NCBI GenBank assembly: GCA_025934025.1
Contig: JAICYU010000008.1
Coordinates: 1 to 39,473 of the forward strand
Source of the DNA: Terriglobales bacterium
GTDB taxonomy: Bacteria; Acidobacteriota; Terriglobia; Terriglobales; Acidobacteriaceae
Length of the DNA: 39,473 nt
Reading direction: 5' to 3'
Shown: in pieces, positions 8,901 to 33,240 of the stretch
Position numbering within the stretch: position 1 is the first letter of the stretch
How the letters are laid out: the number at the start of each line of letters is the position of its first letter
Made by a program: the position numbers and the translations under genes
The notes under the pieces: model-generated
The model's input: only the letters and a program-made list of their open reading frames with translations
What the model was told of the DNA's origin: nothing
Database searches by the model: none

Positions 8901-8958
8901 TAACATTCCGGGCGTGAAATCCACTCAACTGTTCATCACACTCGGCCAGGCATTTTGA
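5950..8958 (+). CDS. Omp85-family outer membrane assembly protein (TamA/TamL/BamA-like) with lipoprotein signal and multiple POTRA domains
   Basis: SPII-like N-terminus MTVSWYRITTLFCVLSVLPFLAGC; about seven POTRA-like repeats; C-terminal barrel with GGGSTLRGFPLNG (RGF motif) and terminal Phe (LFITLGQAF). Confidence 0.92.
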   Translation: MTVSWYRITTLFCVLSVLPFLAGCSLFSGGSGAGTKAQPSPTPNPEAAEQGSISYEGQRVASVEIAGKPDANLRELKPLITQPINNPYSQEKVDATISALKKAGASDDIDVNITPEANGLGLQFVLQPAYYFGIFQFPKAVNHFSYTRLLQASNYPRQEPYSPGRVQEAESNLLDFFHQTGYFRATIEPELQTDARNRIVNVTFDIKLRKRAKFGTILITGIPKSQTQRLADSLTGFRARLKGAYLKPGKTYSLKRLQNAITYLQGQLGKQHYLEGSVRMVSAKYDPATNRADVTLHVVQGPKVEIKIAGAHVWGRTQKKLIPMYQENTVDSDLVHEGAQDLTSYFQSKGFFDVKVDSKITQQPNGINILYQVTKGKRGKVAELEYHGNDHFSDKQLESHVALSEAKWWLPFFSHGKFSDQLVQKSAKNLEGLYQSAGYSQVSVTPQVKNQNGKLTVVFEVDEGQRDIVESLQLEGNKSFSEEELAPKGLNLEPGKPYSQDLLNRDRDRIVATYLDHGFLTMAFRARVNQPKNDPHQIQVIYSIDEGPQVYTTSLAQLGAPDTRPEIVARNANIKVGKPLSETTLLQGESNLYTLGIFDWTSVDTRAPITDQSEADVLVKMHEAKKNTITYGVGFEVTNRGGSIPSGTVALPGLPPVGLPENFKTSQQTFWGPRGSIQYRRNNFRGRAEAVTIGGFAGRLDQRADASWVNPNFWNGGWASTVTLSGERNSENPIFTSQLSTGGIQFQHYLDSKKTKSVYVRYNLSHTKLSNLLVPQLVLPQDQNVRLSTISGSYSRDTRDNVLDAHKGIYQSFEIGLNPSALGSNTNFARFLGQVAYYKPVFGNGTVWANSIRLGLEQAFAGAHIPLSESFFSGGGSTLRGFPLNGAGPQRLVPVCGNPADPSTCAQISVPVGGPQLLILNSELRFPLGLMKNLGGAAFYDGGNIFSKVGLGSFTSDYTNSVGLGLRYSTPVGPVRIDIGHLVNNIPGVKSTQLFITLGQAF

Positions 8959-8971
8959 ATCGGGGACAAAC

Positions 8972-11900: not shown

Positions 11901-12913
11901 GAAAAGTTGGCGGAGGGACGATCACCGCGCGCGGAGGCATGGCGTACCGGCCTAAACCGCAGTTTGATCTCGCGCTGGCAGGGACGAATGTTCGCTTGCG
12001 ATATCCCGAAGGTTTGCGTTCTGAGTTGGGAATGAATCTGGCGTTGACGGGCAACATGCAGTCTTCCTTGCTGAACGGGCAGGTCCAAATCGAGCGAGTT
12101 TCGTTCACTCCTGACTTTGATTTAACCAGCTTCATCGGCCAGTTTGGGGCGGGTGAGTCGGCGCCTGCACCATCCGCCGGCTTTATGCAAAACCTGAAAC
12201 TTAATGTTGCGGTGCAGTCCACTTCGCAGATGAATCTGGTGAGTAATCAAGTGAGCATCCACGGAACGGCCAACGTACGCGTAGCAGGAACTGCGGCAGA
12301 TCCTGTGATCCTGGGACGAGCTACGTTGACCGGCGGAGATTTGTTTTTCGGCGGGAACCGCTACGTGGTACAGCAGGGAACGATTGACTTCCTGAATCCG
12401 GTGCGCACCGAGCCAGTGGTCAACCTTCAAGTCCAGACCACGATTGATCAATACAACATCGCGATGAATGTGGAAGGTCCCGTAGAGAGGCTGCACACGA
12501 CTTATACTTCCGACCCGGCACTTCCACCTGTGGACATCATCAATCTGATTGCATTCGGCAAGACCACAGAAAACCCAAGCACGACGCAGCCGGGACAATT
12601 AGGCGCGCAATCGCTGTTGGCGCAAGGACTGAGCAGCGCTGTGAGTAGCCGCGTGCAGAAGTTCGCTGGGCTCTCGCATTTTTCTATTGATCCACAGTTG
12701 GGAGCCACGAACAACCAGAATCCCGGGGCGCGGGTGGCCATCCAGCAGCGCGTCACCAGCAATCTCTATGTGACGTTTGCTACGGATGTTACGTCCACGC
12801 AGCGGCAGGCAATCCAAGTCGAATACCAGTTGAACCCGCGATGGTCATTGACCGGAGTGCGCGACCAGAACGGCGGTTTCGGCGGGGATGTGCGATATAA
12901 GAAAAGCTTCTAG
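8972..12913 (+). CDS. tamB: Translocation and assembly module TamB-like protein (AsmA-like/DUF490 C-terminus)
   Basis: N-terminal TM anchor, long beta-repeat AsmA/TamB-type body, C-terminus ...DPALPPVDIINLIAFGKTTE...QYQLNPRWSLTGVRDQNGGFGGDVRYKKSF; starts 13 bp after the Omp85 gene. Confidence 0.93.
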   Translation: MNWRKIILWGAVAVVVLVVLAVGTVFLLLKNSSGFRHYLLAKVETSLDESTGARFAISDFVMHLSPLSLDLYSIVVHGTEPAGAPPLMQADHLGIGITIDSLLQRKWHFRDIVLDHPVGYLLVDQAGESNLPRPQKQSSGSKTNAFDLGIRHLLLDRGEIYYNNQKSPLEADLHDLKITGGFNPTQTRYQGHISYDNGHLRYGKYAPVMHSLDSSFSATPQQFALERAQLSTEQAHITLNATIEDYSGATSSPKLQGNYDASLVTQEFAQIMKNSQIPLGTIHLTGFLRYQNHPGRPALENASLWGMVSSPELQVRTKSLQTSVRDFGAKYRLDNGNAEIENLRAQLLGGSLEGRATVHDLTGAGQGRLEATLKDVSLTVLQGASKTNSLRHAHLAGTISADAEASWAKSLKDLVAHANATIRASVGQNPVTPLDGVIHADYLGAKQQVALHQSYIRTPQTSINLDGKVSQLSQLQILVQTRDLHELELLARNFRSSSGQPAQELGLYGSGSLNASISGSLTNPQIKGQLAASNLRVKGSAWKSLRANISANPSQAHISNGELLATRGRFDFNVQAGLSHWAYKPSNPINVSLSASQLSLADLERLANKTYPVTGTLSLNVAVHGSQLNPMGQGNLTVANARLGNEPIQNITVKFQGNGNAVNANLLVQLPAGQAKALLMYLPRTEGYQLQLTADNIRLEKLQTVKAKNLQIAGTLSLDANGRGTFKDPELTASLSIPQLQVRQQTIQGINFNTTVRNHAANFTLNSAVAQTYIKGQGTVGLNAPHMADVHLDTGRIQFEPLLALYAPASAQDVSGQTELHMSIRGPLADEKRVEAHLEIPVLNAQYKQLQLGAVKPIRLDYQNGTAVLQPTTIRGTDTDVNLQASVPVTSPKAASFLVQGTVDLQIAQLVRPDLQSTGQLQFDIDSRRYAAGSNLNGQMRIVNANLHTASAPIGLDNANGVITVTSSRLEISSFQGKVGGGTITARGGMAYRPKPQFDLALAGTNVRLRYPEGLRSELGMNLALTGNMQSSLLNGQVQIERVSFTPDFDLTSFIGQFGAGESAPAPSAGFMQNLKLNVAVQSTSQMNLVSNQVSIHGTANVRVAGTAADPVILGRATLTGGDLFFGGNRYVVQQGTIDFLNPVRTEPVVNLQVQTTIDQYNIAMNVEGPVERLHTTYTSDPALPPVDIINLIAFGKTTENPSTTQPGQLGAQSLLAQGLSSAVSSRVQKFAGLSHFSIDPQLGATNNQNPGARVAIQQRVTSNLYVTFATDVTSTQRQAIQVEYQLNPRWSLTGVRDQNGGFGGDVRYKKSF

Positions 12914-17489: not shown

Positions 17490-18800
17490 ATGACTGCGGG
17501 GTTGGGCAAGATTAGTTCGAGATTTTCTCTAGCCGGCGTTGGTTTGCTGTGGCTGTGCATTGGATGCGGAGGTGGAGGCGCGAACGCCGGTCTGCCGGGA
17601 GGCGGAGGAGGGACCCCTTCTCCTACACCCACACCTACCCCCATTCCTACTTCCGCTATCGTCGAGCTCAGGGTGGCTGATTCCGTGGTGCCGCCAGGTG
17701 GAATTTATCAGTACCAACTGCTGCTGACCGAACCCAAGCCCATTGGCAATGGCAGCACGCGTCCAGGAGTTCCCGCCGGTCCCCGAGGCCCGGTGCGTGG
17801 GCTGGCGCTGCAAGCTCCGCGCGGGGTGGCAATCAATGATGCGTCAGGCCAGGCTTCGGGTGTCGCGGTTGTCGCACCTGACGGAACCATCACTGTGAAG
17901 CTGACCTCGCCCAATATCACGCTGGGAACGGACGTAAGTTACCCGCTGTTCACAATGACGATGCCGGTGAATGCGACGGCTACGCCGGGACAGGTTTTTC
18001 CGGTGACTCTGGATGGAGCAAACTCGTTTTTTCTGGATTCCGCCGGAAAGCAGTACACCCAGACGATCACGAATGGAACGCTCACCATCGGCGGCGTCGG
18101 CGATCAATCTATTACTGACGTGATCCCCGGAGGCGGGCTGCTGCCCGACCGCACCCTGGTCAGGGTTTTGGGAGTGGGATTCACGCCCAACACGCGCATC
18201 ACAATCGAAGGGACGAATATCTTTTTCCCTGATGACACTGTCTTTGTCAATTCCGGGGAAATTGATGTCAAGCTCTGCAACGGAACCGTAGATCCTGCAG
18301 CCACCGCATGCCCGAATACCGGAGCGAGCTTCCAACTGGATGGCGAGCGCGTCCGCGCAATCAACAAAGACAACAATAAGGTGATTGAATACTTTTCCTA
18401 CATGCGGACCGCGGATGCTCCGGGTACATCCGGAAACAATCTTGTTGCGGAAGTTCATCCTATGTTCTCGCGCCAGAGCTTCAGCGGGGCAACGCTGCCT
18501 TACTTCACTGACGCAACGCATTTCACCGGGTTAGCATTGCAGAATCCGGGTGCGGTGGATTCCACCGTGCTGCTCGAAATGTTGAATGCAAACAATGTGG
18601 CGCTGGAATCCACCACGATCGTCTTGCCCGCAGGAACCAAGATCGTGCGAGACATAAGAGATTGGTTCACCATCCCATTTGGGTCACAGGAAGTCACGGT
18701 CCGCGCTATGGTGACGACCGGACCTGCGCTACAGATGCTGGGACTATCCGGCGATTCGGCCGCTGGAACGGTTACGCCTGTAGTCCCCACGCCGCAGTAG
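17490..18800 (+). CDS. Predicted lipoprotein with cohesin/IPT-like beta domains
   Basis: SPII-like MTAGLGKISSRFSLAGVGLLWLCIGC, then Gly-rich and (PT)n linker, then beta-rich repeats. Confidence 0.75.
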   Translation: MTAGLGKISSRFSLAGVGLLWLCIGCGGGGANAGLPGGGGGTPSPTPTPTPIPTSAIVELRVADSVVPPGGIYQYQLLLTEPKPIGNGSTRPGVPAGPRGPVRGLALQAPRGVAINDASGQASGVAVVAPDGTITVKLTSPNITLGTDVSYPLFTMTMPVNATATPGQVFPVTLDGANSFFLDSAGKQYTQTITNGTLTIGGVGDQSITDVIPGGGLLPDRTLVRVLGVGFTPNTRITIEGTNIFFPDDTVFVNSGEIDVKLCNGTVDPAATACPNTGASFQLDGERVRAINKDNNKVIEYFSYMRTADAPGTSGNNLVAEVHPMFSRQSFSGATLPYFTDATHFTGLALQNPGAVDSTVLLEMLNANNVALESTTIVLPAGTKIVRDIRDWFTIPFGSQEVTVRAMVTTGPALQMLGLSGDSAAGTVTPVVPTPQ

Positions 18801-19550: not shown

Positions 19551-19826
19551 GCGTCCTCCACGCGTCTTTTCGACTCAGAAAGTTGCTCTTGAAGTTATAT
19601 GATGCGCTGTCGCTTTCAGTGAGATGGCGGGGTGGCAAGCCAAGGAGAACCGAGCACCGCGATGATGCCGGCCAGCGATGATGCCTGCTACGAAGGTCAA
19701 TTTTCTGGGTTTACCGTAAAATAGCGGGGTCTCCACTGTAAGTTGCTGCTGGTTCCTGTATTCTCGACTGCGCGCCAACGTGCCCTGTGTGGCGATGTTG
19801 GAACCGGGAGACGAATTGAGAGTTCG

Positions 19827-22598
19827 ATGGGAGCGATTTTGAATTCGGTGAAATCTTTCATCCGTCTAATACATCTTTTGTCCACGACGAGTTTGTTATG
19901 TGTTCTTGTGCTCACGCAAGTCTCCATGGCCCAGCAGCAAGCCGATCAGCAAAATGATCAGCAACAGAATGATCAGGAACAGGGCCAGTCTTCCGGTGAA
20001 CTTTCGGCCGACGAGATCATCCAGATTCTCCAGGAAAATCCTGACGTGCTGGCAGATGCGAAGGCCGAGATCGCCAGCCAGCTTCAGGACCGTGGCTACC
20101 CGATCACAGAGAAAGACATAACGGACGAAAAGCTGTTTAGTCAGATTCGCTCCGATGACCGGGTCCGGAAAGTAATGAGCGATGAGCTTCAAAGGCGTGG
20201 CTTTGGCGCGTCTCAGGAGTCCGAGCAACAACAGACGACGGCTCCCGCGCGTCCGCGAAACAATGCTGGACAGCGGACACCCGCGGCGGGAACAGCAAGG
20301 AACGGAAATGCCGGCCGGAATGCTCCTTCCGCAGCTTCCGGGCAAAGTACGGGTACAAACCAAACGCAAAGTCAGTACCCATTGCGCGATCTGCCGGCTA
20401 TGCGCGATCTCTACACTCAGGCGCTGAGTCCTCAGGTCGCCATTGAACGCTTCGGCGCGGCGTTGTTCCGCAACAGCGTGGCAACACTCGCCAACGGCCC
20501 GCAGCGGGCGCAGCTCGATATTCCCGTTGGTCCTGATTACGTGATCGGCCCCGGTGATCAGCTCGTGGTCGAGTACTGGGGACGGACCACGCAACGGCTG
20601 CAGCTCACCGTGGATCGGGAAGGTCGGGTGCTGTTGCCTGAAGCAGGCGGAGTGATCGTCGCAGGGCGCACCCTGGCCGACGCTCAGCAGGTCATCGAAA
20701 AATTGCTGGCGCGGCAGTTCCGAGACATTACGGTAGACGTGAGTCTGGGCAAGCTGCGGACGGTCCGGGTTTATGTCGTCGGTGATGTCAAGAATCCAGG
20801 AGCATATGACATCAGTTCACTTTCGACAGCCTTGAGCGCGCTGATTGTCGCCGGAGGGCCTACCGACGCGGGATCGTACCGCACTGTAAATCATTACCGC
20901 GGAAGAAAGCTGCTGGAAGAAGTTGATCTCTATGAGCTGATGCTCAAGGGAGTCACCTCTGGCGAGATCCACTTGGAATCTGGTGACAGCATTCAGGTGC
21001 CCACAACAGGCCCTCAAGTAACGGTTGAAGGTTCAGTACGGCGTCCCGCAATCTACGAGCTGCGCAACGAGAAAACGCTCGACCAGGTGCTGGACTTGGC
21101 GGGTGGCATTCCAGTTACCGGCGAACTCGACAATGTGAAAGTGGAAAGGATTGCCGCGCACGAGCGCAAGGAGATGCTGAACATCAACTTGCCTCAGTCC
21201 GGCGACGATACCGTGCGCCAGGCTTTCACACGCGTGGAGATCAAAGATGGCGACACTGTTACGGTGGCCCCCATCCTGCCGTACACCAATCAAGCGGTTT
21301 ATCTTCAGGGTCACGTGTTTCGTCCGGGGAAATATCCTTATAAGGAAGGCCTGAAAGTTACGGACCTGATCGGTTCCTATAACGACCTTCTTCCTGAACC
21401 GGCTGACCGTGCTGAAATCATCCGGCTGCACCCGCCAGACTACAATCCCGCGGTGATCGCATTCGATCTTCGAAGCGTGCTGGAGAAGCACGAGACCGCT
21501 CCCACTCTCCAGCCCTTCGACACGATTAGAGTCTATGGACGCTACGATGCCGATGCGCCCAAGGTCTCGATTTTTGGCCAGGTGCTGCGCCCCGGCGAAT
21601 ATCCGCTTTCTGACGGCATGACTGCGGCACAACTGGTGCGGCTTGCCGGCGGTTTCACGCGCAGCGCCTTTCGCGATCAGGCGGACCTTTCCAGTTACCA
21701 GATTGTCAACGGCGAGAAGGTGGATCTGGATCATCGTCCAGTGCCAATCGGGCGCGCGCTCACCGGAGAAGCTGATACTGACGTGTTGCTGAAGCCGGGT
21801 GATGTTCTTACGATCAGCCAGATCGGCGGATGGGAAGATATCGGAGGAGCAGTCGGCGTCTCAGGACAGGTGCTCCATCCGGGCCGATATGGAATTCAAA
21901 GCGGCGAGCGGCTCAGCTCTGTCCTGCAGCGCGCTGGAGGGTTCAGTCCGGAAGCTTATCCTTACGGCGCAATTCTTGAGCGTGCCCAGGTCCGGGAGTT
22001 TTCTGCCAGAACCCGCGATGATCTGATCGCGCGCCTGCAAGGCGGAAATTCCACAACTCGTACCACGCCGGGTAGTCTCGTGCCCACCACCGCCAGCACC
22101 GGCGCCTCATCGCAGAATAAGCAGCTTTTGGATCGCCTGAAGCAAATCCAGCCGAGCGGAAGAATGGTGATCCACATCAGCGGCGACATGGCAAAATGGG
22201 AAAAGACCGCCGCGAACATTGAACTGCGCCCGGGCGATACGCTCTTCATTCCCAAGCGCCCGAATTTTGTTATGGTCGCCGGCCAGGTTTACAGCCCGCT
22301 GGCAATTACTTACAGCAAAGGCAAACGCGCAAGCTGGTATCTAAATCAGGCTGGCGGCCCGACCACTCTCGCCGACAAGAAGAATATATTCGTCATCCGA
22401 GCGAATGGCACGGTGATCGGCCGGGGCTCCAATCAATGGTGGTCCGGCAGCATGATGAGCGCCGTGCTGCAGCCTGGAGACACCATCTACGTTCCTGACA
22501 AAGTCAGTGGAGGAAATGCCATCTTCCGCAACATTGGCCAGACCGTTCAACTTCTCTCGGGCGCGGCTGTGGCTGTCAGCGTCATCAGGACTTTCTAA
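19827..22598 (+). CDS. Polysaccharide export protein (Wza-like) with Poly_export and multiple SLBB domains
   Basis: DYVIGPGDQLVVEYWGRTTQRLQLTVDREGRVLLPEAGGVIVAGRTL (Poly_export) followed by about six SLBB-like segments (e.g. VYVVGDVKNPGAYDI, SIFGQVLRPGEYPL, GVSGQVLHPGRYGI). ATG 19827 gives a signal peptide ending SMAQQ. Confidence 0.93.
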   Translation: MGAILNSVKSFIRLIHLLSTTSLLCVLVLTQVSMAQQQADQQNDQQQNDQEQGQSSGELSADEIIQILQENPDVLADAKAEIASQLQDRGYPITEKDITDEKLFSQIRSDDRVRKVMSDELQRRGFGASQESEQQQTTAPARPRNNAGQRTPAAGTARNGNAGRNAPSAASGQSTGTNQTQSQYPLRDLPAMRDLYTQALSPQVAIERFGAALFRNSVATLANGPQRAQLDIPVGPDYVIGPGDQLVVEYWGRTTQRLQLTVDREGRVLLPEAGGVIVAGRTLADAQQVIEKLLARQFRDITVDVSLGKLRTVRVYVVGDVKNPGAYDISSLSTALSALIVAGGPTDAGSYRTVNHYRGRKLLEEVDLYELMLKGVTSGEIHLESGDSIQVPTTGPQVTVEGSVRRPAIYELRNEKTLDQVLDLAGGIPVTGELDNVKVERIAAHERKEMLNINLPQSGDDTVRQAFTRVEIKDGDTVTVAPILPYTNQAVYLQGHVFRPGKYPYKEGLKVTDLIGSYNDLLPEPADRAEIIRLHPPDYNPAVIAFDLRSVLEKHETAPTLQPFDTIRVYGRYDADAPKVSIFGQVLRPGEYPLSDGMTAAQLVRLAGGFTRSAFRDQADLSSYQIVNGEKVDLDHRPVPIGRALTGEADTDVLLKPGDVLTISQIGGWEDIGGAVGVSGQVLHPGRYGIQSGERLSSVLQRAGGFSPEAYPYGAILERAQVREFSARTRDDLIARLQGGNSTTRTTPGSLVPTTASTGASSQNKQLLDRLKQIQPSGRMVIHISGDMAKWEKTAANIELRPGDTLFIPKRPNFVMVAGQVYSPLAITYSKGKRASWYLNQAGGPTTLADKKNIFVIRANGTVIGRGSNQWWSGSMMSAVLQPGDTIYVPDKVSGGNAIFRNIGQTVQLLSGAAVAVSVIRTF

Positions 22599-22608
22599 GG
22601 AGAATTCG

Positions 22609-25074
22609 TTGCTCAAAAGGCCACAGCGGCAACTTCTGATCGCGGCCCTTGTTCTCTGGCTTTGGGCACCCGGCTTGTACAGCCAGGTAACGCCAGACGT
22701 TGCTTCTCAAAAGCCTATGCCGGAAGCAAACAACGAGCATCTGGCCAGCGCAGCGCCCACTACATTCGCTGCTAACGTTCTTCGCGACCAGAAGCAAATC
22801 TGGACGGCGCCGTTCAAAGCCAGAATCGAAGACCTGAACTGGCTGGTGCCGGTGGCCGGAGTGACTGCTGGACTCATCAACGCGGATGCAGAGTTGTCAT
22901 CCCGCATTGACACCGCCGGAACTTTCGCGCGCCATGCGAGCACTATCTCGAATGGCGGCGTGGCTTTGGCCGTGGGAGGCGCAGGCAGCCTTTATTTGCT
23001 CGGAAAACTAAGGACTGACGACCATCAACGGGAAGCAGGCATCGTGGGCGTGGAAGCGGCTACCGATAGTCTGATCGTGACGGAAGCTCTCAAGATCGTC
23101 AGCCTGCGCCAGCGCCCTACGGACGGTGCGGGCCAAGGTTTGTTTTTTGAGAACGGTTCCATCCTCAACTCCTCTTTTCCTTCGGCGCACTCCATGGTGG
23201 CATGGTCGGTCGCCAGCGCTATTTCACATGAATATCCCGGATTGTTTACTCAGGGATTTACTTATACGGCAGCTACGGCTGTGAGCCTGGCCCGCGTATA
23301 TGGCAAGCAGCACTTTCCCAGCGATGTTTTCGTTGGGGCTGTGGCGGGATGGCTGATTGGACGTCAGGTATATTCATCGCATCACGACCTTAATCTTACC
23401 GGCGGTGGCGGCTGGGGAACGTTCGACCATGATAATGCTTCGCCTGAGACTTCAGTCCGTCCCGTCTCTTTCTCGCCGTACGTTCCCATGGATAGCTGGG
23501 TGTATGGCGCATTTGATCGCCTTGCAGCCCTGGGAGCCACGCAGACCGGCTTCGCCAGTCTCAGACCTTGGACACGTCAGGAATGTGCTCGGCTGATCGA
23601 AGAGGCGCAGAGTGCGGTGGATGAAACCTCCGGCGACGAATCATCACGGCTGCTTGCAGCTCTCGAAAGGGAGTTCGCGAAGGAACTGCAGGGCGGAGAC
23701 GCGGAATACATCGGGATTGACTCTCTCTATGCTCGGACCCTTTCGACGTCCGGGCCGGCACTCACTGACGATTATCATTTCGGCCGAACCGTAGTAAACG
23801 ATTTTGGAAGGCCTTACGAGCGCGGAACCAATGCAGTAGCGGGGATCTCCGGCAGCGGCTCCTCAGGACCTCTGGGATTTTATATTCGCGGAGAATATGA
23901 GCATGCTCCTTCTGCTGCGGCAGTTCCTCAGGCAGTGCAGGATGCGATCCAGGTGGCAGATGAGAAGCCGCCGGCGCCGGCGCTTGCAACGCCGGAATTC
24001 GATCAGTTCCGATTGCTTGATGGATACGTGAGCCTCAATCTGAAAGGATGGCAGGCTTCATTCGGAAAACAGAACCTCTGGCTCGGCCCCACTCAGGATC
24101 CAATGTTATGGAGCACCAATGCGGAACCGGTTTACATGTTCCGCGTGGACCAGACGGTTCCCAAGAAACTGCCCAGCCTGCTAAAGCTCCTTGGTCCTTA
24201 CCGGATTGAGCTTTGGGAGGCCAAGCTGGCAGGCCATCATTTTATCGCTACTCAAAGCTCCCTTGGAACCGTTGTCACCCTGGGACGAAGTTTGGCGCGC
24301 CAGCCAATGGTCAATGGCTTCAAGGTGAACTTCAAGCCGACGCCCAATTTCGATTTCGGAGTCGGCGCTACCGGGCTGTGGGGCGGGCCTGATTTTCCCA
24401 TCACCTTAGGTGCGTTCCGGCATGCAGCTCTGTCCACTACGAATGCGGTTGGACGCGGACATGATCCCGGGGACCGGCGCTCCAGCTTCGACTTCAGCTA
24501 TCGGATTCCCAAACTGCGCGACCTGCTTACGTTGTATGAAGATTCAATGGTCGAAGATGAGATCTCGCCCATCGGATACCCGCGTCGCGCTGCGCATGAT
24601 GCCGGAATTTACCTGAGCCGGCTGCCCAAGCTGCCGCATATGGATTTTCGCGCCGAGGGAGCGTATACCAATCTCCCCGGTCTGTTTGAGCCCGCGGGCG
24701 GTGGCTTCTTTTATTGGAACGTCCGCTACCTCGATGGATACACCGTGAGAGGCAATATCATTGGTGACGCGACCGTAGGCAGACAGGGCATTGCATTGCG
24801 CGCGGAAACAACGTACTGGGCTGCGGCGGATAAGACCGTCAAGCTGGGCTATCGCAGCAATATCGCCGATGCCATGTTTCTCCAGGGCGGTAACCTGCGG
24901 GATATTTATGCGCGGTCCGACTGGAGCTTGAACCCAAACGTTCTGCTCTCCAGTTTTCTGCAGTACGAGTACTGGAATTTTCCGCTGCTCAGTGCGGGAG
25001 AGAAACAGAACAACTTTACTGCCGCTTTTCAGATTACGTGGCAGCCACACTGGCGAGTGAGGCATGGAAGCTAG
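22609..25074 (+). CDS. PAP2-type phosphatase domain fused to capsule-assembly Wzi-like outer membrane beta-barrel
   Basis: PAP2 motifs KIVSLRQRP, SSFPSAHS, SLARVYGKQHFPSD; C-terminal half is a beta-barrel with Wzi-like WLGPTQDPML, AYTNLPG and FQITWQPHWRV. TTG start with AAGGAG upstream and a signal peptide (LLIAALVLWLWAPGLYSQ). Confidence 0.85.
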   Translation: MLKRPQRQLLIAALVLWLWAPGLYSQVTPDVASQKPMPEANNEHLASAAPTTFAANVLRDQKQIWTAPFKARIEDLNWLVPVAGVTAGLINADAELSSRIDTAGTFARHASTISNGGVALAVGGAGSLYLLGKLRTDDHQREAGIVGVEAATDSLIVTEALKIVSLRQRPTDGAGQGLFFENGSILNSSFPSAHSMVAWSVASAISHEYPGLFTQGFTYTAATAVSLARVYGKQHFPSDVFVGAVAGWLIGRQVYSSHHDLNLTGGGGWGTFDHDNASPETSVRPVSFSPYVPMDSWVYGAFDRLAALGATQTGFASLRPWTRQECARLIEEAQSAVDETSGDESSRLLAALEREFAKELQGGDAEYIGIDSLYARTLSTSGPALTDDYHFGRTVVNDFGRPYERGTNAVAGISGSGSSGPLGFYIRGEYEHAPSAAAVPQAVQDAIQVADEKPPAPALATPEFDQFRLLDGYVSLNLKGWQASFGKQNLWLGPTQDPMLWSTNAEPVYMFRVDQTVPKKLPSLLKLLGPYRIELWEAKLAGHHFIATQSSLGTVVTLGRSLARQPMVNGFKVNFKPTPNFDFGVGATGLWGGPDFPITLGAFRHAALSTTNAVGRGHDPGDRRSSFDFSYRIPKLRDLLTLYEDSMVEDEISPIGYPRRAAHDAGIYLSRLPKLPHMDFRAEGAYTNLPGLFEPAGGGFFYWNVRYLDGYTVRGNIIGDATVGRQGIALRAETTYWAAADKTVKLGYRSNIADAMFLQGGNLRDIYARSDWSLNPNVLLSSFLQYEYWNFPLLSAGEKQNNFTAAFQITWQPHWRVRHGS

Positions 25075-26368
25075 CGGTCGCGCCGTTCCCATCTTCGAAC
25101 CTGCAGGCCCGCAGATGCGACCGCCTCAGCGGGAGAAGGTCAGCCGCATCTGGCTGCTGTGGACGCACCGGCAACTGCTATGGTCCGTGAGTTGGAAAGC
25201 TGCGCTCCTGACTTCAGCCTTCTCTCTTCTGTTGCCCACACATTATCAATCAACCGTAAAAGTCGCTCCCGGTGATAGCTCTCGCCAGACTATGGCTGCT
25301 CTCGGCAACATTGCAGGTTCTACCGGCTCATTCGGGTTGGGGCTTGATGCCGCGGCACTGTTAGGCATGAAGACGCCCGGAGCATTCTATGTTGAGATCT
25401 TGAAAAGCCAGCGTACTCAGGATCGTCTGATTGATCGTTTTGATCTGCGCCGCCATTACTGGAAATTCAAAGCATTTTCGCCCCGCGGCTACTATGAAAC
25501 GCGGAAAAAGCTTGCGGAATTTACCGACATTGAAGAGGACAAGAAGAGCGGCGTCATCAGCGTTAGTGTCAAAGACTACGATCCCGTTGCGGCTTCGCGT
25601 GTGGCGAACGCTTACATAGAAGAACTCAACCGCCTGTCGTCCGACCTGGACACGTCAGAAGCTCACCGGGAAAGAATTTTTCTTGAAGGACGGTTGGGCC
25701 AGGCCAGGAAAGATCTGGACCAGGCCTCTACGGAACTGAGCCGTTTCTCCAGCAGGAATACCATTACTGATCCCACGAGCCAGGGAAAGGCGATGGTGGA
25801 ATCGGCCGCCAGAATCCAGGGAGAACTTGTTGCCGCTGAAACGGAGCTGCGAGGATTACAGCAGATCTATTCTGACAGCAACGTTCGCGTCAGAACTCTT
25901 GCTGCGCGTATCAATGAACTCCGGCAACAGCTCAAACTGCTCAGCGGCAGTGATCCTCTCGCTGCCGAAAAGGATGGCGCTGATTTTACCGAGCATCCTT
26001 CCTTTCGCAAGCTCCCTGCGCTCAGCTATCAATACATGAATCTTTATCGGCAGGCCAAAGTGCAGGAATCGGTCTACGAGTTCCTGACGCAGCAATATGA
26101 GATGGCCCGGATCCAGGAAGCGCGCGAATTGCCCACCGTCCGGGTGGTGGATCCCGCAATGCCGCCGGAGAGGAAGTCCGGTCCTTATCGCAGCCTCATC
26201 GTGATTTCCAGTGTGATCTGCGCATTTTTTCTGGCTTGTTTCTGGATATTGGGAAGAAATGCTTGGGAAGAAATTCCGCTGGACGATCCACGGCGTGCTG
26301 TGGTTGCAGAAGCACGAAAATCTTTGAAGCGCACATTCTTCCGCAATCGAGTGAGGAGCAATGTCTAG
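25064..26368 (+). CDS. Wzz/GumC-type chain-length determinant (polysaccharide co-polymerase) without kinase domain
   Basis: N-terminal TM, PGAFYVEILKSQRTQDRLIDRFDL, coiled-coil middle, PTVRVVDPAMPPERKSGPYRSLIVISSVICAFFLACFWI C-terminal TM. Overlaps the preceding gene by 11 bp. Confidence 0.9.
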   Translation: MEASGRAVPIFEPAGPQMRPPQREKVSRIWLLWTHRQLLWSVSWKAALLTSAFSLLLPTHYQSTVKVAPGDSSRQTMAALGNIAGSTGSFGLGLDAAALLGMKTPGAFYVEILKSQRTQDRLIDRFDLRRHYWKFKAFSPRGYYETRKKLAEFTDIEEDKKSGVISVSVKDYDPVAASRVANAYIEELNRLSSDLDTSEAHRERIFLEGRLGQARKDLDQASTELSRFSSRNTITDPTSQGKAMVESAARIQGELVAAETELRGLQQIYSDSNVRVRTLAARINELRQQLKLLSGSDPLAAEKDGADFTEHPSFRKLPALSYQYMNLYRQAKVQESVYEFLTQQYEMARIQEARELPTVRVVDPAMPPERKSGPYRSLIVISSVICAFFLACFWILGRNAWEEIPLDDPRRAVVAEARKSLKRTFFRNRVRSNV

Positions 26369-26981
26369 CATCGGAGGGAGTTCGAGTTCGAGATCACGCT
26401 TGTATTTCGAGGAACTGGCGGCACTGGTTCCGGTATTGCCTTACGAAGCAATGGATCGAATCGTGGAGTTGATTGTGGGGGCATGCCGCGAAGAGCGCAC
26501 CATCTTCGTCTTCGGCAACGGAGGCAGCGCCGCATCGGCCTCCCACATGGTCTGCGACCTGAATAAGGGAGTAGCTCAATCTGCAGCAACTTCGCGCATC
26601 AAAGCCATGGCCCTCACCGATAACGTTCCGCTGCTTACCGCTTGGGCCAATGATTTGAGTTATGAGCATGTGTTCTCCGAGCAACTCAAGAATTTTGTCC
26701 AGCCGGGCGATGTTGTGCTGGCACTAAGCTGCACTGGGAATTCGCGAAATGTCCTGGCTGGGCTGAGAACGGCGCGCGACTTGGGCGCAACTGCGGCGGG
26801 GCTGGCCGGCTTTGAAGGCGGAGCCATGAAAGAGCTTTGCGACGTATGCGCGGTAGTGCCTTGCGAGAACATGCAAATTGTTGAGGATATGCACCAAGCC
26901 ATGCTGCACTCAATTTGCTGCTCCGTCGGCGAATGCCTTCGGGAACCAAGGCCCGCGTTCCGCTTAACTGCCGCGCGCTGA
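26361..26981 (+). CDS. SIS-domain sugar isomerase, phosphoheptose isomerase (GmhA)-like
   Basis: TIFVFGNGGSAASASHMVCDLNKG, NDLSYEHVFSEQLKNFVQPGDVVLALSCTGNSRNVL. Confidence 0.87.
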   Translation: MSSIGGSSSSRSRLYFEELAALVPVLPYEAMDRIVELIVGACREERTIFVFGNGGSAASASHMVCDLNKGVAQSAATSRIKAMALTDNVPLLTAWANDLSYEHVFSEQLKNFVQPGDVVLALSCTGNSRNVLAGLRTARDLGATAAGLAGFEGGAMKELCDVCAVVPCENMQIVEDMHQAMLHSICCSVGECLREPRPAFRLTAAR

Positions 26982-26992
26982 AAAGCTTTTGC

Positions 26993-28120
26993 ATGAAAAT
27001 CGCGTTCGATTTGCGCAGAATCGGAAATCCGGGAATCGGCCGCTATATGAAGGGTCTGGTCGAGTCAGTAGTTAGCTTCGCGCCTCAGCACAATTATTTG
27101 TTGATTTTGCCTGATGGGCCGAAGCAAGGCGTCTTCCCGGATCAGTTCGAAGTGCAGAAGATTGCCTCGCGCGCAAAGTGTTACTCCATCCGAGAGCAGG
27201 CGGAAATCCCATACCTTCTTTATCGCGAAAAGGTTGATCTGCTGCATTCACCTCACTTCAATCTGCCGCTGCTTTGTCCATGTCGAAGTGTGGTGACCAT
27301 TCACGATGTCATTTACCTAACCCGTTCGCAGGAACTGGCTTCCGTTACCGGCAGGCTCTATTACCGGGCAATGATTTCTGCCGCCATGCAGGCCGACAAA
27401 GTAATCACGGTTTCAGAGTTCTCAAAGCAAGACATTCTTGAGCATCTGAAAGTTGCTTCGGAAAAAGTCCAGGTGATTTATCCCGGAGTTGACTCCAGTT
27501 TCCGCACCCCCTCTGAAGATCGCATTCGCGAGGTGCGGCTCCGGTATGGGATAACCGGCGGCTACATTCTGTACACCGGAATATTTAAGCTGCGCAAAAA
27601 CCATGTCGGCCTGATTCACGCGTTTCGGCATTTTCTCGATTCCGGCGCTGGAGCACAACTAGTGATTGCAGGTCGCTGGGATGAATCTGTTGCGGAACTG
27701 CGGCGACTGGCCTGTGACCTGGGAGTGGGGGATAAAGTTGTGTTCACAGGTTTTGTGAGCGAGAGTGATCTTCCCGCGTTGTATTCCGGCGCGCGAGTCT
27801 ACGCCTGCCCTTCATTGTACGAAGGCTTTGGCTTTACTGTTCTTGAAGCGATGGCCTGCGGTGTCCCTGTCGTTTGTTCGCACGCAACGTCGCTGCCCGA
27901 GGTGGCTGGCGATGCCGCACTCTTTGCGGATTCTAGTTCTCCTCAGGAATTTGGGCGCGCGCTGGTTCAGGCATTTAGAGATGATTCACTGCGGGCGAGC
28001 CTGGTTGAACGCGGATTCAAGAATAGGCAGCGCTTTCAATGGAGTTGGACTGCCGAAAGAGTACTCGACGTTTACAGCTCAGTTCTGAACCAGCGGGTCG
28101 TGGGCGCAGCTCTCGCATGA
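26993..28120 (+). CDS. Glycosyltransferase, GT4 family (GT-B)
   Basis: MKIAFDLRRIGNPGIGRYMKGL, VDLLHSPHFNLP, VVTIHDVIYL, KVITVSEFSKQDIL, CPSLYEGFGFTVLEAMACGVPVVCSHATSLPEVAGDAALF. Confidence 0.94.
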   Translation: MKIAFDLRRIGNPGIGRYMKGLVESVVSFAPQHNYLLILPDGPKQGVFPDQFEVQKIASRAKCYSIREQAEIPYLLYREKVDLLHSPHFNLPLLCPCRSVVTIHDVIYLTRSQELASVTGRLYYRAMISAAMQADKVITVSEFSKQDILEHLKVASEKVQVIYPGVDSSFRTPSEDRIREVRLRYGITGGYILYTGIFKLRKNHVGLIHAFRHFLDSGAGAQLVIAGRWDESVAELRRLACDLGVGDKVVFTGFVSESDLPALYSGARVYACPSLYEGFGFTVLEAMACGVPVVCSHATSLPEVAGDAALFADSSSPQEFGRALVQAFRDDSLRASLVERGFKNRQRFQWSWTAERVLDVYSSVLNQRVVGAALA

Positions 28121-29592
28121 ATACGGCGTACATTTCGAGCACGGAAGCGCGGCCGCGCGCCGCGCTGGTGTGGACCGTGGCGATCACGGCGTCGGCTTCA
28201 GTGCTGTTGGCTGCCAATGTCCCAGCAGGCGTGGTTGTTCTTGCCTTCATGTTGTTGTTCTTTACCGCCTTCTTCCGCTTCGCTCCTTTGCTGTACCTGA
28301 TGATTTTCCTCATTCCGCTTGCCCCGATGGCCGAAGTTCATGGCGTCTCTGTGCATGATTTTGCTTCGCTCAGCCGGATTGTCCTGTTTGTCGGAGTGCT
28401 CGCAAGCCGCGTGGTGCGCGATGAACCGATTGTTTCCTGGCTGGTCGGGGGCAAGCTGGAAAAGTGGGGACTTGCACTTTTTAGTATTGCTGTGTTTTCT
28501 GCGGTCATTGCGCATCCGCTCGAATCAGGATCGGAGCGATCGCTATTTCGGCTCACGTCATACCTGCTCTTCTACTATTCATTTACCGGTTGGATCGCAT
28601 CTTCGGCCCAGCTCCGCAAATGCCTGGTTGCACTCTTCCTTTCGACACTGGTTGTTTGTGGCTTAGCATTTCAGCAGGTTGCGGTGAATGGATTGGGGAG
28701 CTGGTTTTTTCAGCTCTATTCCAACCAGGCGGAAATGGCGCCGCAATGGGTCGGCCGGGTCACATCTGTGTTTCTGGGAGTGAATTCTCTTGCCGCCCAT
28801 CTCAATATCATTCTGCCGCTGACGCTTGCTGTATTTGCCTGTGGTGTCATCGAAAGGCGACTCAGAACTCTGGCCGTGGTCTGCCTTTGCTTAGGCGTCA
28901 TCGTCCTGGTGCTAACGTTGAGCCGCGGGGCATTTCTGGCCTTCTTCGTGATGCTAGCGATTCTCTTAAAGACCGTTCTGCGCACACCGGGGGTGTGGCG
29001 GAAGGCGCTTGCAATCATTGCCGCTTCAGCAATCGCCGGATGTGCTCTCTCCTACTATGCGATCCATGCCGCGGGAGAAGGCTCAGATGGCTCACCTATG
29101 GACCGGTTCACTTCCGTGGATGAAGGAACCCTTATGCGTGGGTTCATCTATGCTTCCGCCTGGAGCATGTTCACAGCTTCTCCCCTGACGGGAATCGGCT
29201 ATGGGAACTTCCGCGCGCGCTTCAACTCATACATCGGCGATGGCCCCGACGACCGCTGGGACGTACACAGCCTCTACTTCAAATATCTGGCTGAAACAGG
29301 CATTCTAGGCCTGGTCATTTTTCTCGGCTTTGTCATCTGCGCGATTTGCCTGGCACGAAAGATCTGGCGAGACAGAGACGGCACATTTGAGCCGATGATC
29401 GCAGCCGCTATCCTCGGCGCCATCGCCACTGTTCTGGTACAGGGAACGGTGGAATCGCTTATCGAGAATCCTGAATTTGGCGGGTTGCTGTGGTTCATGT
29501 TCGCGTTGCTGGCCATCGTGCGCAATCTGAAACAGGTGCAGCCCGAGCGCGCACTCTCGGCAAAGGCCTTGGCCGCAGGAGCGCAGATGTGA
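28117..29592 (+). CDS. O-antigen ligase / polymerase (Wzy_C) family membrane protein
   Basis: Polytopic membrane protein with DVHSLYFKYLAETGILGLVIFLG ligase/polymerase signature; ATGA overlap with the upstream gene. Confidence 0.9.
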   Translation: MNTAYISSTEARPRAALVWTVAITASASVLLAANVPAGVVVLAFMLLFFTAFFRFAPLLYLMIFLIPLAPMAEVHGVSVHDFASLSRIVLFVGVLASRVVRDEPIVSWLVGGKLEKWGLALFSIAVFSAVIAHPLESGSERSLFRLTSYLLFYYSFTGWIASSAQLRKCLVALFLSTLVVCGLAFQQVAVNGLGSWFFQLYSNQAEMAPQWVGRVTSVFLGVNSLAAHLNIILPLTLAVFACGVIERRLRTLAVVCLCLGVIVLVLTLSRGAFLAFFVMLAILLKTVLRTPGVWRKALAIIAASAIAGCALSYYAIHAAGEGSDGSPMDRFTSVDEGTLMRGFIYASAWSMFTASPLTGIGYGNFRARFNSYIGDGPDDRWDVHSLYFKYLAETGILGLVIFLGFVICAICLARKIWRDRDGTFEPMIAAAILGAIATVLVQGTVESLIENPEFGGLLWFMFALLAIVRNLKQVQPERALSAKALAAGAQM

Positions 29593-30731
29593 CCACCAAA
29601 ATTGCGCTCGATTCCTGGGTGCTCTCAAGCCGCTTTCGCAATCATGGCATTTACGCCTACGCCAGATCTCTCTTCCGGGAATTCGCGCGCAAGCCCATTG
29701 AGCACGACCTGGAGTTTTGTCTTTTTACTTCGCCCGGAAATCACAACGACGCCAGCGAGCTTCCGCGCGGGCCAAATTTCCATCATTGGCCAACCCGATT
29801 GCTTCAACACAAGCATCTCTGGCGCTTGGCCGGAGCTTCCCGAAGTGCCAGAGCAGAAAAAGCCGATCTTCTTTTTGCCCCATCAGCGACTGTTCTGCCC
29901 AGTTCGGTTCCCATGGTCTGTACCATTCACGATACGACTCCTCTTCGGCAACCCTCTTCTCGCGCAACGGTTAATCTGATGCAGCGGATTTTCTTGCGGT
30001 CGGCCGCGGCGGCTTCGCGCGCCATCATCACCGTCTCGCAGTGCTCCAAGCGGGACCTGGTGGAACTCCTTCAAGTGCCGGAGAGCAGGATCGCTGTGAT
30101 TTATCCTGGCTATGACAAAGCCGCTTTCAATCCGATCCCCCCGGACAGCGTTGTTCTCGAAGGCTTGCTGATGAGGCTGCAGATCAGTCGTCCCTATATC
30201 CTTCATCATGGTGTCATTCAGCCGCGGAAGAACCTCATGCGACTTTTGCAAGCGTATCGCTTGCTGATGGCGGAGAACCGGCGCATGGAGTTTGATCTAG
30301 TTCTTGCAGGTCCGCTGGGCTGGGGATTTCAACCGGTACTCGAAGCCGTGCACCGGTCGAGCAGCCGTAGGCGGGTAGTTCTGACCGGCGCGCTCGAACA
30401 GCATGAGCTGGCAATGCTGGTGAAAGGCGCAGCTCTCGCCGTCATACCGTCTCTCTACGAAGGCTTCTGTCTTCCGCTCGTTGAAAGCATGGCCTGTGGA
30501 ACGCCCACCATCGCTGCCAATACTTCGTGTCTTCCGGAAGTCTCAGGTTCGGGCTTGCTTTATTTCGATCCTTTGTCAGTGGATGACATCACCGGCTGCA
30601 TGAAGCGAGTGCTTGATGATTCTCAGTTACGACGTGATCTTGCGCGGCGCGGCAAAGCATATGTTGCCCGCTATGACTGGCAACATTGCGCCGATGCGAC
30701 TCTGCAAGTGCTCAAGAGGGCGGCGGCATGA
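29589..30731 (+). CDS. Glycosyltransferase, GT4 family
   Basis: KIALDSWVLSSRFRNHGIYAYARSLF, CTIHDTTPL, IITVSQCSKRDLVELL, IPSLYEGFCLPLVESMACGTPTIAANTSCLPEVSG. GTG start overlapping the upstream TGA. Confidence 0.93.
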   Translation: MTTKIALDSWVLSSRFRNHGIYAYARSLFREFARKPIEHDLEFCLFTSPGNHNDASELPRGPNFHHWPTRLLQHKHLWRLAGASRSARAEKADLLFAPSATVLPSSVPMVCTIHDTTPLRQPSSRATVNLMQRIFLRSAAAASRAIITVSQCSKRDLVELLQVPESRIAVIYPGYDKAAFNPIPPDSVVLEGLLMRLQISRPYILHHGVIQPRKNLMRLLQAYRLLMAENRRMEFDLVLAGPLGWGFQPVLEAVHRSSSRRRVVLTGALEQHELAMLVKGAALAVIPSLYEGFCLPLVESMACGTPTIAANTSCLPEVSGSGLLYFDPLSVDDITGCMKRVLDDSQLRRDLARRGKAYVARYDWQHCADATLQVLKRAAA

Positions 30732-31417
30732 TGCGAACTGCAGCATTACAGCCGGCGCGCGTTGAGACCGCAGCTAATCAAGCATGGCATTGGCTCGCCG
30801 CGCGGTTCCGACAAAAGCGACGAGCCATGTTGCTCCATCTGTTTCCTCCGAACAGGTTCCCCAAAGTGATTGATGTTGGCGGCGCTTCCAAGGATTGGGA
30901 GGACGAGAATCGAGTGATCACAATCCTGAATCTCGTGCCCCAGCAATCCGGGCGACATCGTTTCATCGCCGGCGATGCCCGGCACATTGAGTGCGCCCAA
31001 GATGCTTTCGATTTTGCGTACTGCAATTCTGTCATCGAGCATGTCGGAACGTGGGAAGACCAGAAGATGGTCGCAGCGGAACTGCGCCGCATTGCCCCCG
31101 CGCTCTGGGTGCAGACGCCAAATCGCTGGTTCCCGGTGGAGGTGCATTATCTGACTCTGTTCCTGCACTGGTGGCCCCGATTACTGAGAAACCACTTCGT
31201 TGTGCGTTGGTTCACCGGCTGGGGTTGGCTGGTGCATCCCGATCGGGGTGAGGTGGAGCGCTACGCCGAAACAGTGCATTTGCTCTCCGCCCGCCAGATG
31301 AAGCATCTCTTCCCGGATTGCTGGCTCGTACGCGAGCGCTTTCTCGGGCTGAGCAAGTCGCTTATCTGCATTCGGGAGCAAAGGAGCATGCCCAGACGCG
31401 ATGAGGCGACCCGATAG
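30728..31417 (+). CDS. SAM-dependent class I methyltransferase
   Basis: PKVIDVGGASKDW, FDFAYCNSVIEHVGTWEDQKMVAAELRRIAPALWVQTPNRWFPVEVHY (Methyltransf_11-like). ATGA overlap with the upstream gene. Confidence 0.88.
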   Translation: MMRTAALQPARVETAANQAWHWLAARFRQKRRAMLLHLFPPNRFPKVIDVGGASKDWEDENRVITILNLVPQQSGRHRFIAGDARHIECAQDAFDFAYCNSVIEHVGTWEDQKMVAAELRRIAPALWVQTPNRWFPVEVHYLTLFLHWWPRLLRNHFVVRWFTGWGWLVHPDRGEVERYAETVHLLSARQMKHLFPDCWLVRERFLGLSKSLICIREQRSMPRRDEATR

Positions 31418-32560
31418 ATGCGCGCTAACGCTCCACGCCTTCCATTGCGGGTGGGATTCGATGCGCGCTGGTACAACAACTCGGGGGTCGGAACTTACGT
31501 GGCTGGACTGCTCGGTGCAATGAGCAAACTATCCGAAGTTGAACTCATGGTTTATGAGGACCCGGCCAATCCTGTTCCTGAGCTTGCTGCGAACTGTAGT
31601 CGCAAACCGGTTCGCTGCGGAAAGTACTCGTTGCGTGCGCAAATTGAGCTTGCCTCTCTCTGCCGCAAGGACCGGCTGCATCTATTCCACTCTCCTTTTT
31701 ATGTGGCGCCATTTTTCGCCTCCTGCCCTGTGGTCATCACCGTACACGATCTGATTCCTTTCTTGTTCCCGATCGCTCCCTGGGCGAAGCAGGCATTGGT
31801 GAGGTTTGGATATCAGGCAGCGGTGAAGAAGTCCGCCCACATCATTGCTATTTCGGCACACACGGCCCGCGATCTCCGCGAGGTTCTTCACCTCTCCGGC
31901 GAACACATTACGGTGGTTCACAATGCCGCGCGCCGCGATGTCTTCGGTCCAGAGAGGCAGCCAGACGAGTTGCGGTATTTGCAAGAGAAATATCAACTCC
32001 AGCCTCGCTACGTCGTAGTGGCAAGCGCTGGAAATTGGCAGACCAAGAATTTGCAAGCCGCTCTGGCCGCGTTGGATCTGGCCCGCCAGATCAGAGAGGA
32101 GACCTTCCAGATTGCGGTGTTTGGTCCGGAAGAAGGTCTGAATTCGATTCGGACTCGTCCAACGAATATCCATGCGCTCGGCTATATTCCTGTGCCAGAT
32201 CTCGCTATCCTCTTTCGCCATGCGCATGCCTTCGTTACACCATCTCTCTACGAGGGATTCGGTCTTCCTGCTCTCGAAGCAATGTGCTGCGGGTGTCCGG
32301 TAATTGCCTCAGATCAGGGAGCGTTGCCGGAGATCGTAGCCTATGGCGGGCAGGTGTTTGCGCCGGGCGACATTGCTGGTATGGCACGCGCCGTGGCCGA
32401 ACTGCTTTGCCGTCGGGATATGCTGGAGCGGTGGCGCAACTCCGGGCTGAAGCGGGCCGCGGATTTTTCCTGGGAGCGGGCTGCAAGAGAGACTCTCAGG
32501 GTTTATCATCGTGTCGTCTTTGGCGAACAGCCGGAAATGATGCTTGCTGCCGCCGATTGA
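31418..32560 (+). CDS. Glycosyltransferase, GT4 family
   Basis: LRVGFDARWYNNSGVGTYVAGLL, LHLFHSPFYVAPF, VVITVHDLIPFL, VTPSLYEGFGLPALEAMCCGCPVIASDQGALPEIV. Confidence 0.94.
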   Translation: MRANAPRLPLRVGFDARWYNNSGVGTYVAGLLGAMSKLSEVELMVYEDPANPVPELAANCSRKPVRCGKYSLRAQIELASLCRKDRLHLFHSPFYVAPFFASCPVVITVHDLIPFLFPIAPWAKQALVRFGYQAAVKKSAHIIAISAHTARDLREVLHLSGEHITVVHNAARRDVFGPERQPDELRYLQEKYQLQPRYVVVASAGNWQTKNLQAALAALDLARQIREETFQIAVFGPEEGLNSIRTRPTNIHALGYIPVPDLAILFRHAHAFVTPSLYEGFGLPALEAMCCGCPVIASDQGALPEIVAYGGQVFAPGDIAGMARAVAELLCRRDMLERWRNSGLKRAADFSWERAARETLRVYHRVVFGEQPEMMLAAAD

Positions 32561-32565
32561 TCCCC

Positions 32566-33240
32566 ATGCCGGCACCTGTTCCCATGCAGCTTCGGGCCCA
32601 CGATTCTCATTCAGATCTGGTCACGCCAAGACGATTAGAACCCATCCATCTCTTTCTGAAGCGCGCAATGGATGTCATCGGATCTATTTTTCTGCTTCTC
32701 CTTTCGTCGCCGCTCATTGGAATTTGTGGACTGCTGGTCAGGTTGCAGGACGGCGGACCAGCAATTCACCGCAGGCGCGTAATTGGAAAGGCGGGAGAAT
32801 TCGATGCGCTCAAGCTTCGTACCATGCGATCTGATGCCGATGAGGTGCTCGCACGTGATCCGCTGCTGCGAAAGCTTTTTGAAATCAACTTCAAATTGAA
32901 GGATGATCCGCGCATAACGCCTTTGGGGAGGCTTCTCCGCCGGACGAGCCTGGATGAGTTGCCTCAGCTCTGGAATGTTCTTAAGGGAGAAATGAGCCTG
33001 GTTGGACCACGAATGATCTCACCACAAGAGCTCGCACGCTACGGCGATGCAGCATGGATATTTGGTGCGCTTAAGCCGGGATTGACAGGGTACTGGCAGG
33101 TGGAAGGGCGCCATGGGGTCTCTTACGAGGAAAGGGTTGCGATGGATTGGTCGTACGTTGAGAACTGGTCTTTGCTGAACGATGTGAAGATCCTTTGTAA
33201 GACCCCATGGCGCGTGCTGCGGGGAATGGGAGCATTCTAA
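32566..33240 (+). CDS. Polyprenyl-phosphate sugar-1-phosphate transferase (bacterial sugar transferase), short form
   Basis: FLKRAMDVIGSIFLLLLSSPLIGICGLLVRLQDGGPAIHRRRVIGKAGEFDALKLRTMRSDAD, LGRLLRRTSLDELPQLWNVLKGEMSLVGPR, LKPGLTGYWQVEGR. Start trimmed from 32035 to ATG 32566. Confidence 0.94.
   Translation: MPAPVPMQLRAHDSHSDLVTPRRLEPIHLFLKRAMDVIGSIFLLLLSSPLIGICGLLVRLQDGGPAIHRRRVIGKAGEFDALKLRTMRSDADEVLARDPLLRKLFEINFKLKDDPRITPLGRLLRRTSLDELPQLWNVLKGEMSLVGPRMISPQELARYGDAAWIFGALKPGLTGYWQVEGRHGVSYEERVAMDWSYVENWSLLNDVKILCKTPWRVLRGMGAF

Follow-up and report, generated by a model that had tools for sequence, protein, structure and literature searches.

The fusion gene and its export operon

The window, by which we mean the whole 39,473-nucleotide stretch of Terriglobales bacterium DNA that was analysed, carries an exopolysaccharide operon on its + strand. 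Between the export protein and the polysaccharide co-polymerase of this operon lies one gene that joins a PAP2 phosphatase domain to a Wzi-family outer-membrane barrel. The genes and start signals are as follows:

19743..22598, + strand: OPX (Wza-like) export protein with Poly_export and SLBB repeats (Pfam); sole PF02563 match found in its own genome
22597..22602, + strand: Shine-Dalgarno sequence AAGGAG, 6 nt 5' of the TTG start and overlapping the upstream OPX stop codon (sequence read)
22609..25074, + strand: PAP2-Wzi fusion protein, 821 residues; TTG start, very probable, set by the Shine-Dalgarno site and the signal peptide
22609..22683, + strand: predicted Sec signal peptide with a basic n-region and a LLIAALVLWLWA core (sequence inspection)
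25064..26368, + strand: polysaccharide co-polymerase (PCP; Wzz/GNVR, BexC/KpsE-like), its start overlapping the end of the fusion gene (profile matches)
26361..33240, + strand: rest of the exopolysaccharide operon, comprising a SIS-domain protein, GT4 glycosyltransferases, a Wzy_C polymerase/ligase, a methyltransferase and a WbaP-type initiating transferase (profile matches)

The reading frame is open on the + strand from a GTG codon at 22507 to 25074. The protein read from the TTG codon at 22609 begins LLKRPQRQLLIAALVLWLWAPGLYSQ, by inspection a typical signal peptide, and because AAGGAG stands at 22597-22602 and the signal peptide then opens the translation, this codon is very probably the true start, as the earlier note had called it. 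That note had also described a single ORF joining PAP2 to Wzi, and had proposed profile searches of both halves. Its description is correct: PF01569 (PAP2; residues 188-294, E 2.8e-19, with 69.6 bits where the cut-off is 27.2) and PF14052 (Caps_assemb_Wzi; residues 416-836, E 3.3e-82, 277 bits against 30.1) are both matched well above their Pfam gathering scores, and all three PAP2 motifs are found. The OPX gene upstream and the PCP gene downstream keep a conserved order. The architecture is signal peptide, PAP2 (PF01569) and Wzi (PF14052), in that order. A frameshift or assembly artefact is ruled out, because dozens of independent homologues carry the same fusion in a single frame. At one other locus (L136:6980-9473) the PAP2-Wzi gene is split into overlapping frames of 161 and 685 residues, both matching PAP2, possibly through a frameshift or sequencing error.

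An OPX gene lies directly upstream of the fusion in the window and at L022, L024, L026, L028 and L029. At a further 20 loci, most of them in other genera, it is directly upstream in 18 and directly downstream in one, with a PCP gene following the fusion within a few genes in 16 of the 20. At L027 a Wzi barrel without PAP2 occupies the same slot beside OPX, and in one genus (g4) the OPX gene is, for several fusions, a few kilobases away and not adjacent. The OPX proteins beside these PAP2-Wzi and Wzi genes are unusually long, at about 800-1200 residues (window 19743-22598, L022, L024, L026-L029, L033, L114, L119, L120, L123 and L127). SLBB repeats are present in the five that were scanned with Pfam, and a hydrophobic, helix-like C-terminal tail in all those examined; no Pfam match to the Wza_C domain was found in the window OPX or in any of the five OPX proteins scanned.

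Several other genes of the window may be mentioned here. The SIS-domain protein (26361-26981) is related to GmhA, a sedoheptulose-7-phosphate isomerase, at scores below the curated cut-offs, and might hint at heptose in the polymer. Just upstream of the operon is a 436-residue ORF without a Pfam match (17490-18800), and further upstream of the exopolysaccharide locus an Omp85/POTRA protein is followed directly by a TamB protein (5950-12913), forming an outer-membrane assembly pair.

The PAP2 domain and the Wzi barrel

Within the fusion protein the following parts are distinguished, all on the + strand:

22756..23388, + strand: PAP2 phosphatase domain of seven helices, the first lying ahead of the PF01569 match (Pfam and AlphaFold2 model)
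23092..23118, + strand: PAP2 motif C1, KIVSLRQRP (K in 45/48, R and P in 48/48 distinct fused homologues)
23179..23190, + strand: PAP2 motif C2, PSAH (S and H in 48/48, P in 47/48 distinct fused homologues)
23293..23325, + strand: PAP2 motif C3, RVYGKQHFPSD (R and H in 48/48, D in 47/48 distinct fused homologues)
23389..23496, + strand: PAP2-to-Wzi linker, in part modelled as disordered (model residues 266-279 have pLDDT below 50)
23497..23673, + strand: modelled periplasmic plug of three helices in the Wzi part (model residues 297-307, 323-336 and 344-355)
23704..25041, + strand: modelled 18-stranded outer-membrane beta-barrel of the Wzi family (PF14052; AlphaFold2 model; Foldseek)

Counted from the ORF start at 22507, the motif residues are K196-x6-R203-P204, P225-S-A-H228 and R263-x5-H269-x3-D273. 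The catalytic residues are near-invariant in the 48 distinct fused PAP2 domains, with R, S, H, R and H present in all, whereas column identity averages 41% over the PAP2 alignment as a whole. The earlier note's idea would have suffered had these residues not been conserved in homologues, and the pattern that the alignment gives is most naturally read as that of an active phosphatase. The residue before R263 is Ala where Ser is usual; fused relatives show four different residues at this position, Ser most often. The C1 lysine is replaced (by S, N, R or Q) in a few fused homologues, a homologue with Q lying beyond the set of 48, and the C3 aspartate is replaced by Glu in one. Loss of the C1 lysine cannot be tied to a missing OPX neighbour, since the proteins at L102, L136 and L138 are without this lysine yet adjoin OPX.

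The AlphaFold2 model was computed from 44 sequences of the family and its relatives and has a mean pLDDT of 85.9 at full length and 88.6 for the PAP2 part alone. It runs from a signal helix through a disordered stretch to seven PAP2 helices, and then through a low-confidence linker to three short helices and 18 strands. For the whole Wzi part the top PDB match by Foldseek is E. coli Wzi (2ynk; E 2.1e-16, target TM 0.81), far ahead of other porins, and by analogy with E. coli Wzi this part probably binds exported polymer at the cell surface.

Searches with the PAP2 part return both soluble and integral relatives. In a profile search of the PDB the best match is 9htz, a soluble class A acid phosphatase (E 3.4e-12), followed by the integral LpxE (1.5e-9); in the structure search the integral PAP2 proteins 5jki and 6ebu are closest (E about 2-3e-3), with soluble acid phosphatases only slightly behind, all of these matches being weak. 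A hydrophobic polytopic domain is expected to become trapped in the inner membrane. We therefore compared helix hydrophobicity as an apparent insertion energy averaged over the six best segments, using an approximate biological insertion scale, on which the 48 fused domains have a mean of 4.74 (SD 0.43), compared with 0.38, 1.65 and 0.95 for E. coli PgpB, YbjG and LpxT. None of the 48 has a segment below 2.3, whereas PgpB, YbjG and LpxT each have negative segments, and on this approximate scale the six hydrophobic membrane helices of integral PAP2-type Und-PP phosphatases were not found in the fused PAP2 domains. Stand-alone PAP2 relatives in Acidobacteriota are similarly polar, and close ones occur within Acidobacteriaceae. 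The score against the Und-PP-phosphatase equivalog SepP (NF047884, NCBIfam) is 27.1 bits, compared with a cut-off of 250, and no other such equivalog was matched.

Because its helices are far more polar than those of PgpB, YbjG and LpxT, the domain is probably soluble or only peripherally membrane-bound. The barrel ends and plug of Wzi are periplasmic by experiment (PMC3791409), and an N-terminal extension must therefore sit in the periplasm, below the outer membrane. Periplasmic location beneath the outer membrane is thus strongly implied, and the PAP2 domain is very probably both periplasmic and tethered to that membrane.

Distribution and history of the fusion

In about 70 of 200 sampled genomes of Acidobacteriaceae, the family to which the window belongs, a single alignment spans both domains, and more genomes have two separate matches in one long frame. 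No such fusion was found outside Acidobacteriaceae in a 297-genome sample of Acidobacteriota, and a search of plasmids gave just one match, to Wzi only. In other Acidobacteriota proteins, at L057:5595-7520 and L059:4868-6568, a PAP2 domain at the C-terminus is preceded by some 330-420 residues without a Pfam match. The earlier note had allowed that the fusion might prove a standard, well-characterised architecture. It is indeed widespread within Acidobacteriaceae, yet we found no description of the PAP2-Wzi fusion in the literature searched, which included few of the subscription papers.

The fused clusters match between the Wzi tree and the PAP2 tree. One fusion event inside a single genus is ruled out, since the fusion label has to change four times on the Wzi tree and twice on the PAP2 tree; these trees fit either an old fusion that was later lost in some lineages or more than one fusion. 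Many Wzi-like barrels in Acidobacteriaceae are without PAP2, and near the Wzi-only genes examined there was no stand-alone PAP2 of the fusion subfamily that could form a 'Rosetta stone' pair. Since such barrels have PAP2 neither fused nor nearby, not every system of this kind requires the phosphatase step.

The genome that contains the window has a second fusion (G000:C75:1036-3402, equivalent to L023:1048-3414), with 42% identity and the catalytic residues kept. This paralogue has no OPX gene near it; its neighbours on the two sides are a beta-propeller-like protein and a phosphoketolase. These two fusions account for the only PAP2 domains above the Pfam cut-off in the genome, which also carries one BacA-type Und-PP phosphatase, so that general Und-PP recycling does not need the fusion.

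Proposed function and comparison with known systems

We propose that the gene product is an outer-membrane-anchored periplasmic phosphatase that forms part of the polysaccharide export machine. The plugged 18-stranded Wzi barrel would hold the exported polymer at the cell surface, while the PAP2 part, exported with the barrel, would fold as a periplasmic helix bundle and be suspended from the plug next to the OPX channel. In this position it may strip phosphate from what the chain carries, either the phosphorylated reducing end that release from Und-PP leaves behind or a carrier remnant, and so finish the polymer for passage or retention. That the PAP2 domain works with the OPX/PCP exporter is strongly inferred; the identity of its substrate as a phosphorylated polymer end is a tentative suggestion. 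Overall, a tethered phosphatase acting on phosphate carried with the exported polymer is the best explanation that we can offer, at a probability of roughly 0.4.

What else might such a domain do? A dedicated Und-PP phosphatase, recycling the carrier lipid of the pathway, would have to reach the inner membrane from the outer-membrane barrel or act at the OPX-PCP contact. The operon, with its WbaP and Wzy_C proteins, is Und-P-dependent, the modelled PAP2 fold resembles LpxE and Bacillus subtilis PgpB, the PAP2 proteins YbjG, PgpB, LpxT and BcrC do recycle Und-PP in other bacteria (PMC12826051), and this genome holds no above-cut-off PAP2 domains other than its two Wzi-fused ones. Nevertheless, BacA is already at hand, the SepP score is far too low, none of the 48 homologues has a PAP2 helix as hydrophobic as those of the integral enzymes, and the linker is just 35-40 residues or so in length, which together make this role unlikely. 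The earlier note had imagined Und-PP dephosphorylation coupled to anchoring, and that coupling is weakened by the topology, by BacA and by the SepP result; its other idea, of a soluble periplasmic enzyme, fits better, to which can now be added a periplasmic Wzi N-terminus and helices too polar for the usual insertion into the inner membrane. Another candidate is a general periplasmic acid phosphatase, or an enzyme acting on outer-membrane lipid (lipid A or phospholipid) with the barrel as a mere anchor. The best PDB profile match is a class A non-specific acid phosphatase (PMC12356135), and the close stand-alone relatives in the family share the low-hydrophobicity profile; a position between OPX and PCP genes that is kept across many genera would, however, be unexpected for a scavenging enzyme, and we consider this reading improbable as well.

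Somewhat more doubtful is a role in processing chain ends for the Wzy-type pathway at the outer membrane, in which the PAP2 domain would hydrolyse a phosphorylated or lipid-diphosphate chain end or transfer the chain end to an outer-membrane acceptor. LpxT-type PAP2 enzymes are known to transfer phosphate. If such end-processing occurs, release of the polymer and its attachment to the surface would be one step in one protein. An inactive PAP2 part, serving as a spacer or as a carbohydrate- or phosphate-binding module, could accommodate the occasional replacements of the C1 lysine and C3 aspartate, but is very hard to square with five residues invariant in all 48 distinct homologues.

To our knowledge, the fate of the carrier-linked end of the polymer chain is open. 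How Wzy-type polysaccharides are retained on Gram-negative cells is likewise unsettled (PMC12220298). With an intact phosphatase joined to a presumed polymer-holding barrel, a link between the two becomes directly testable in one gene, through point mutants of the catalytic histidines. The system is also ecologically relevant, since members of the Acidobacteriaceae have been reported to secrete exopolysaccharide in soil (PMC5259719).

Each half of the protein has well-known counterparts. E. coli Wzi (2ynk, PF14052) shares the 18-stranded barrel, the three-helix periplasmic plug and a gene location beside Wza/Wzc-type export genes; in contrast to the fusion it has no enzymatic domain, and the two are only about 15% identical in structural alignment. 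The composite OPX/beta-barrel translocons of Myxococcus (EpsX, WzpX) similarly have an 18-stranded barrel encoded beside OPX, but EpsX has neither a periplasmic plug (PMC9601211) nor a PAP2 part, whereas the fusion barrel is plugged in our model. A composite translocon of this type would pair an unplugged barrel with an OPX that has no outer-membrane helix of its own; the OPX of the window gives no Pfam Wza_C match yet has the hydrophobic, helix-like tail, and the barrel may be either an exit pore or a plugged lectin. The PAP2 phosphatases LpxE and PgpB (PF01569) have the same three motifs and the same helix order, and differ in being hydrophobic inner-membrane proteins, while the PAP2 part of the fusion is polar, comes after a signal peptide and is attached to a barrel of the outer membrane. 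Class A non-specific acid phosphatases (PhoN, PhoC, M2-32) are the secreted, soluble version of the fold and supply the best PDB profile match, but these are free enzymes, neither fused to barrels nor tied to export operons.

The fusion appears to be a case in which an enzyme fold that is normally membrane-embedded has become sufficiently polar for export together with an outer-membrane protein. Comparable arrangements have been described for Lipocone proteins, whose lipid-head-group-acting domains are fused to outer-membrane barrels and are proposed to act on lipid-linked polysaccharides, in a study that also notes soluble versions of PAP2 (PMC12419801). In YfiM-DUF2279 and YfiM-Griddle (PMC12419801) the enzyme fold is unrelated to PAP2, and their function is likewise a proposal, but the combination of a lipid-head-group-type enzyme with an outer-membrane barrel, and its proposed action at the outer membrane, make these proteins the nearest conceptual parallel to PAP2-Wzi.
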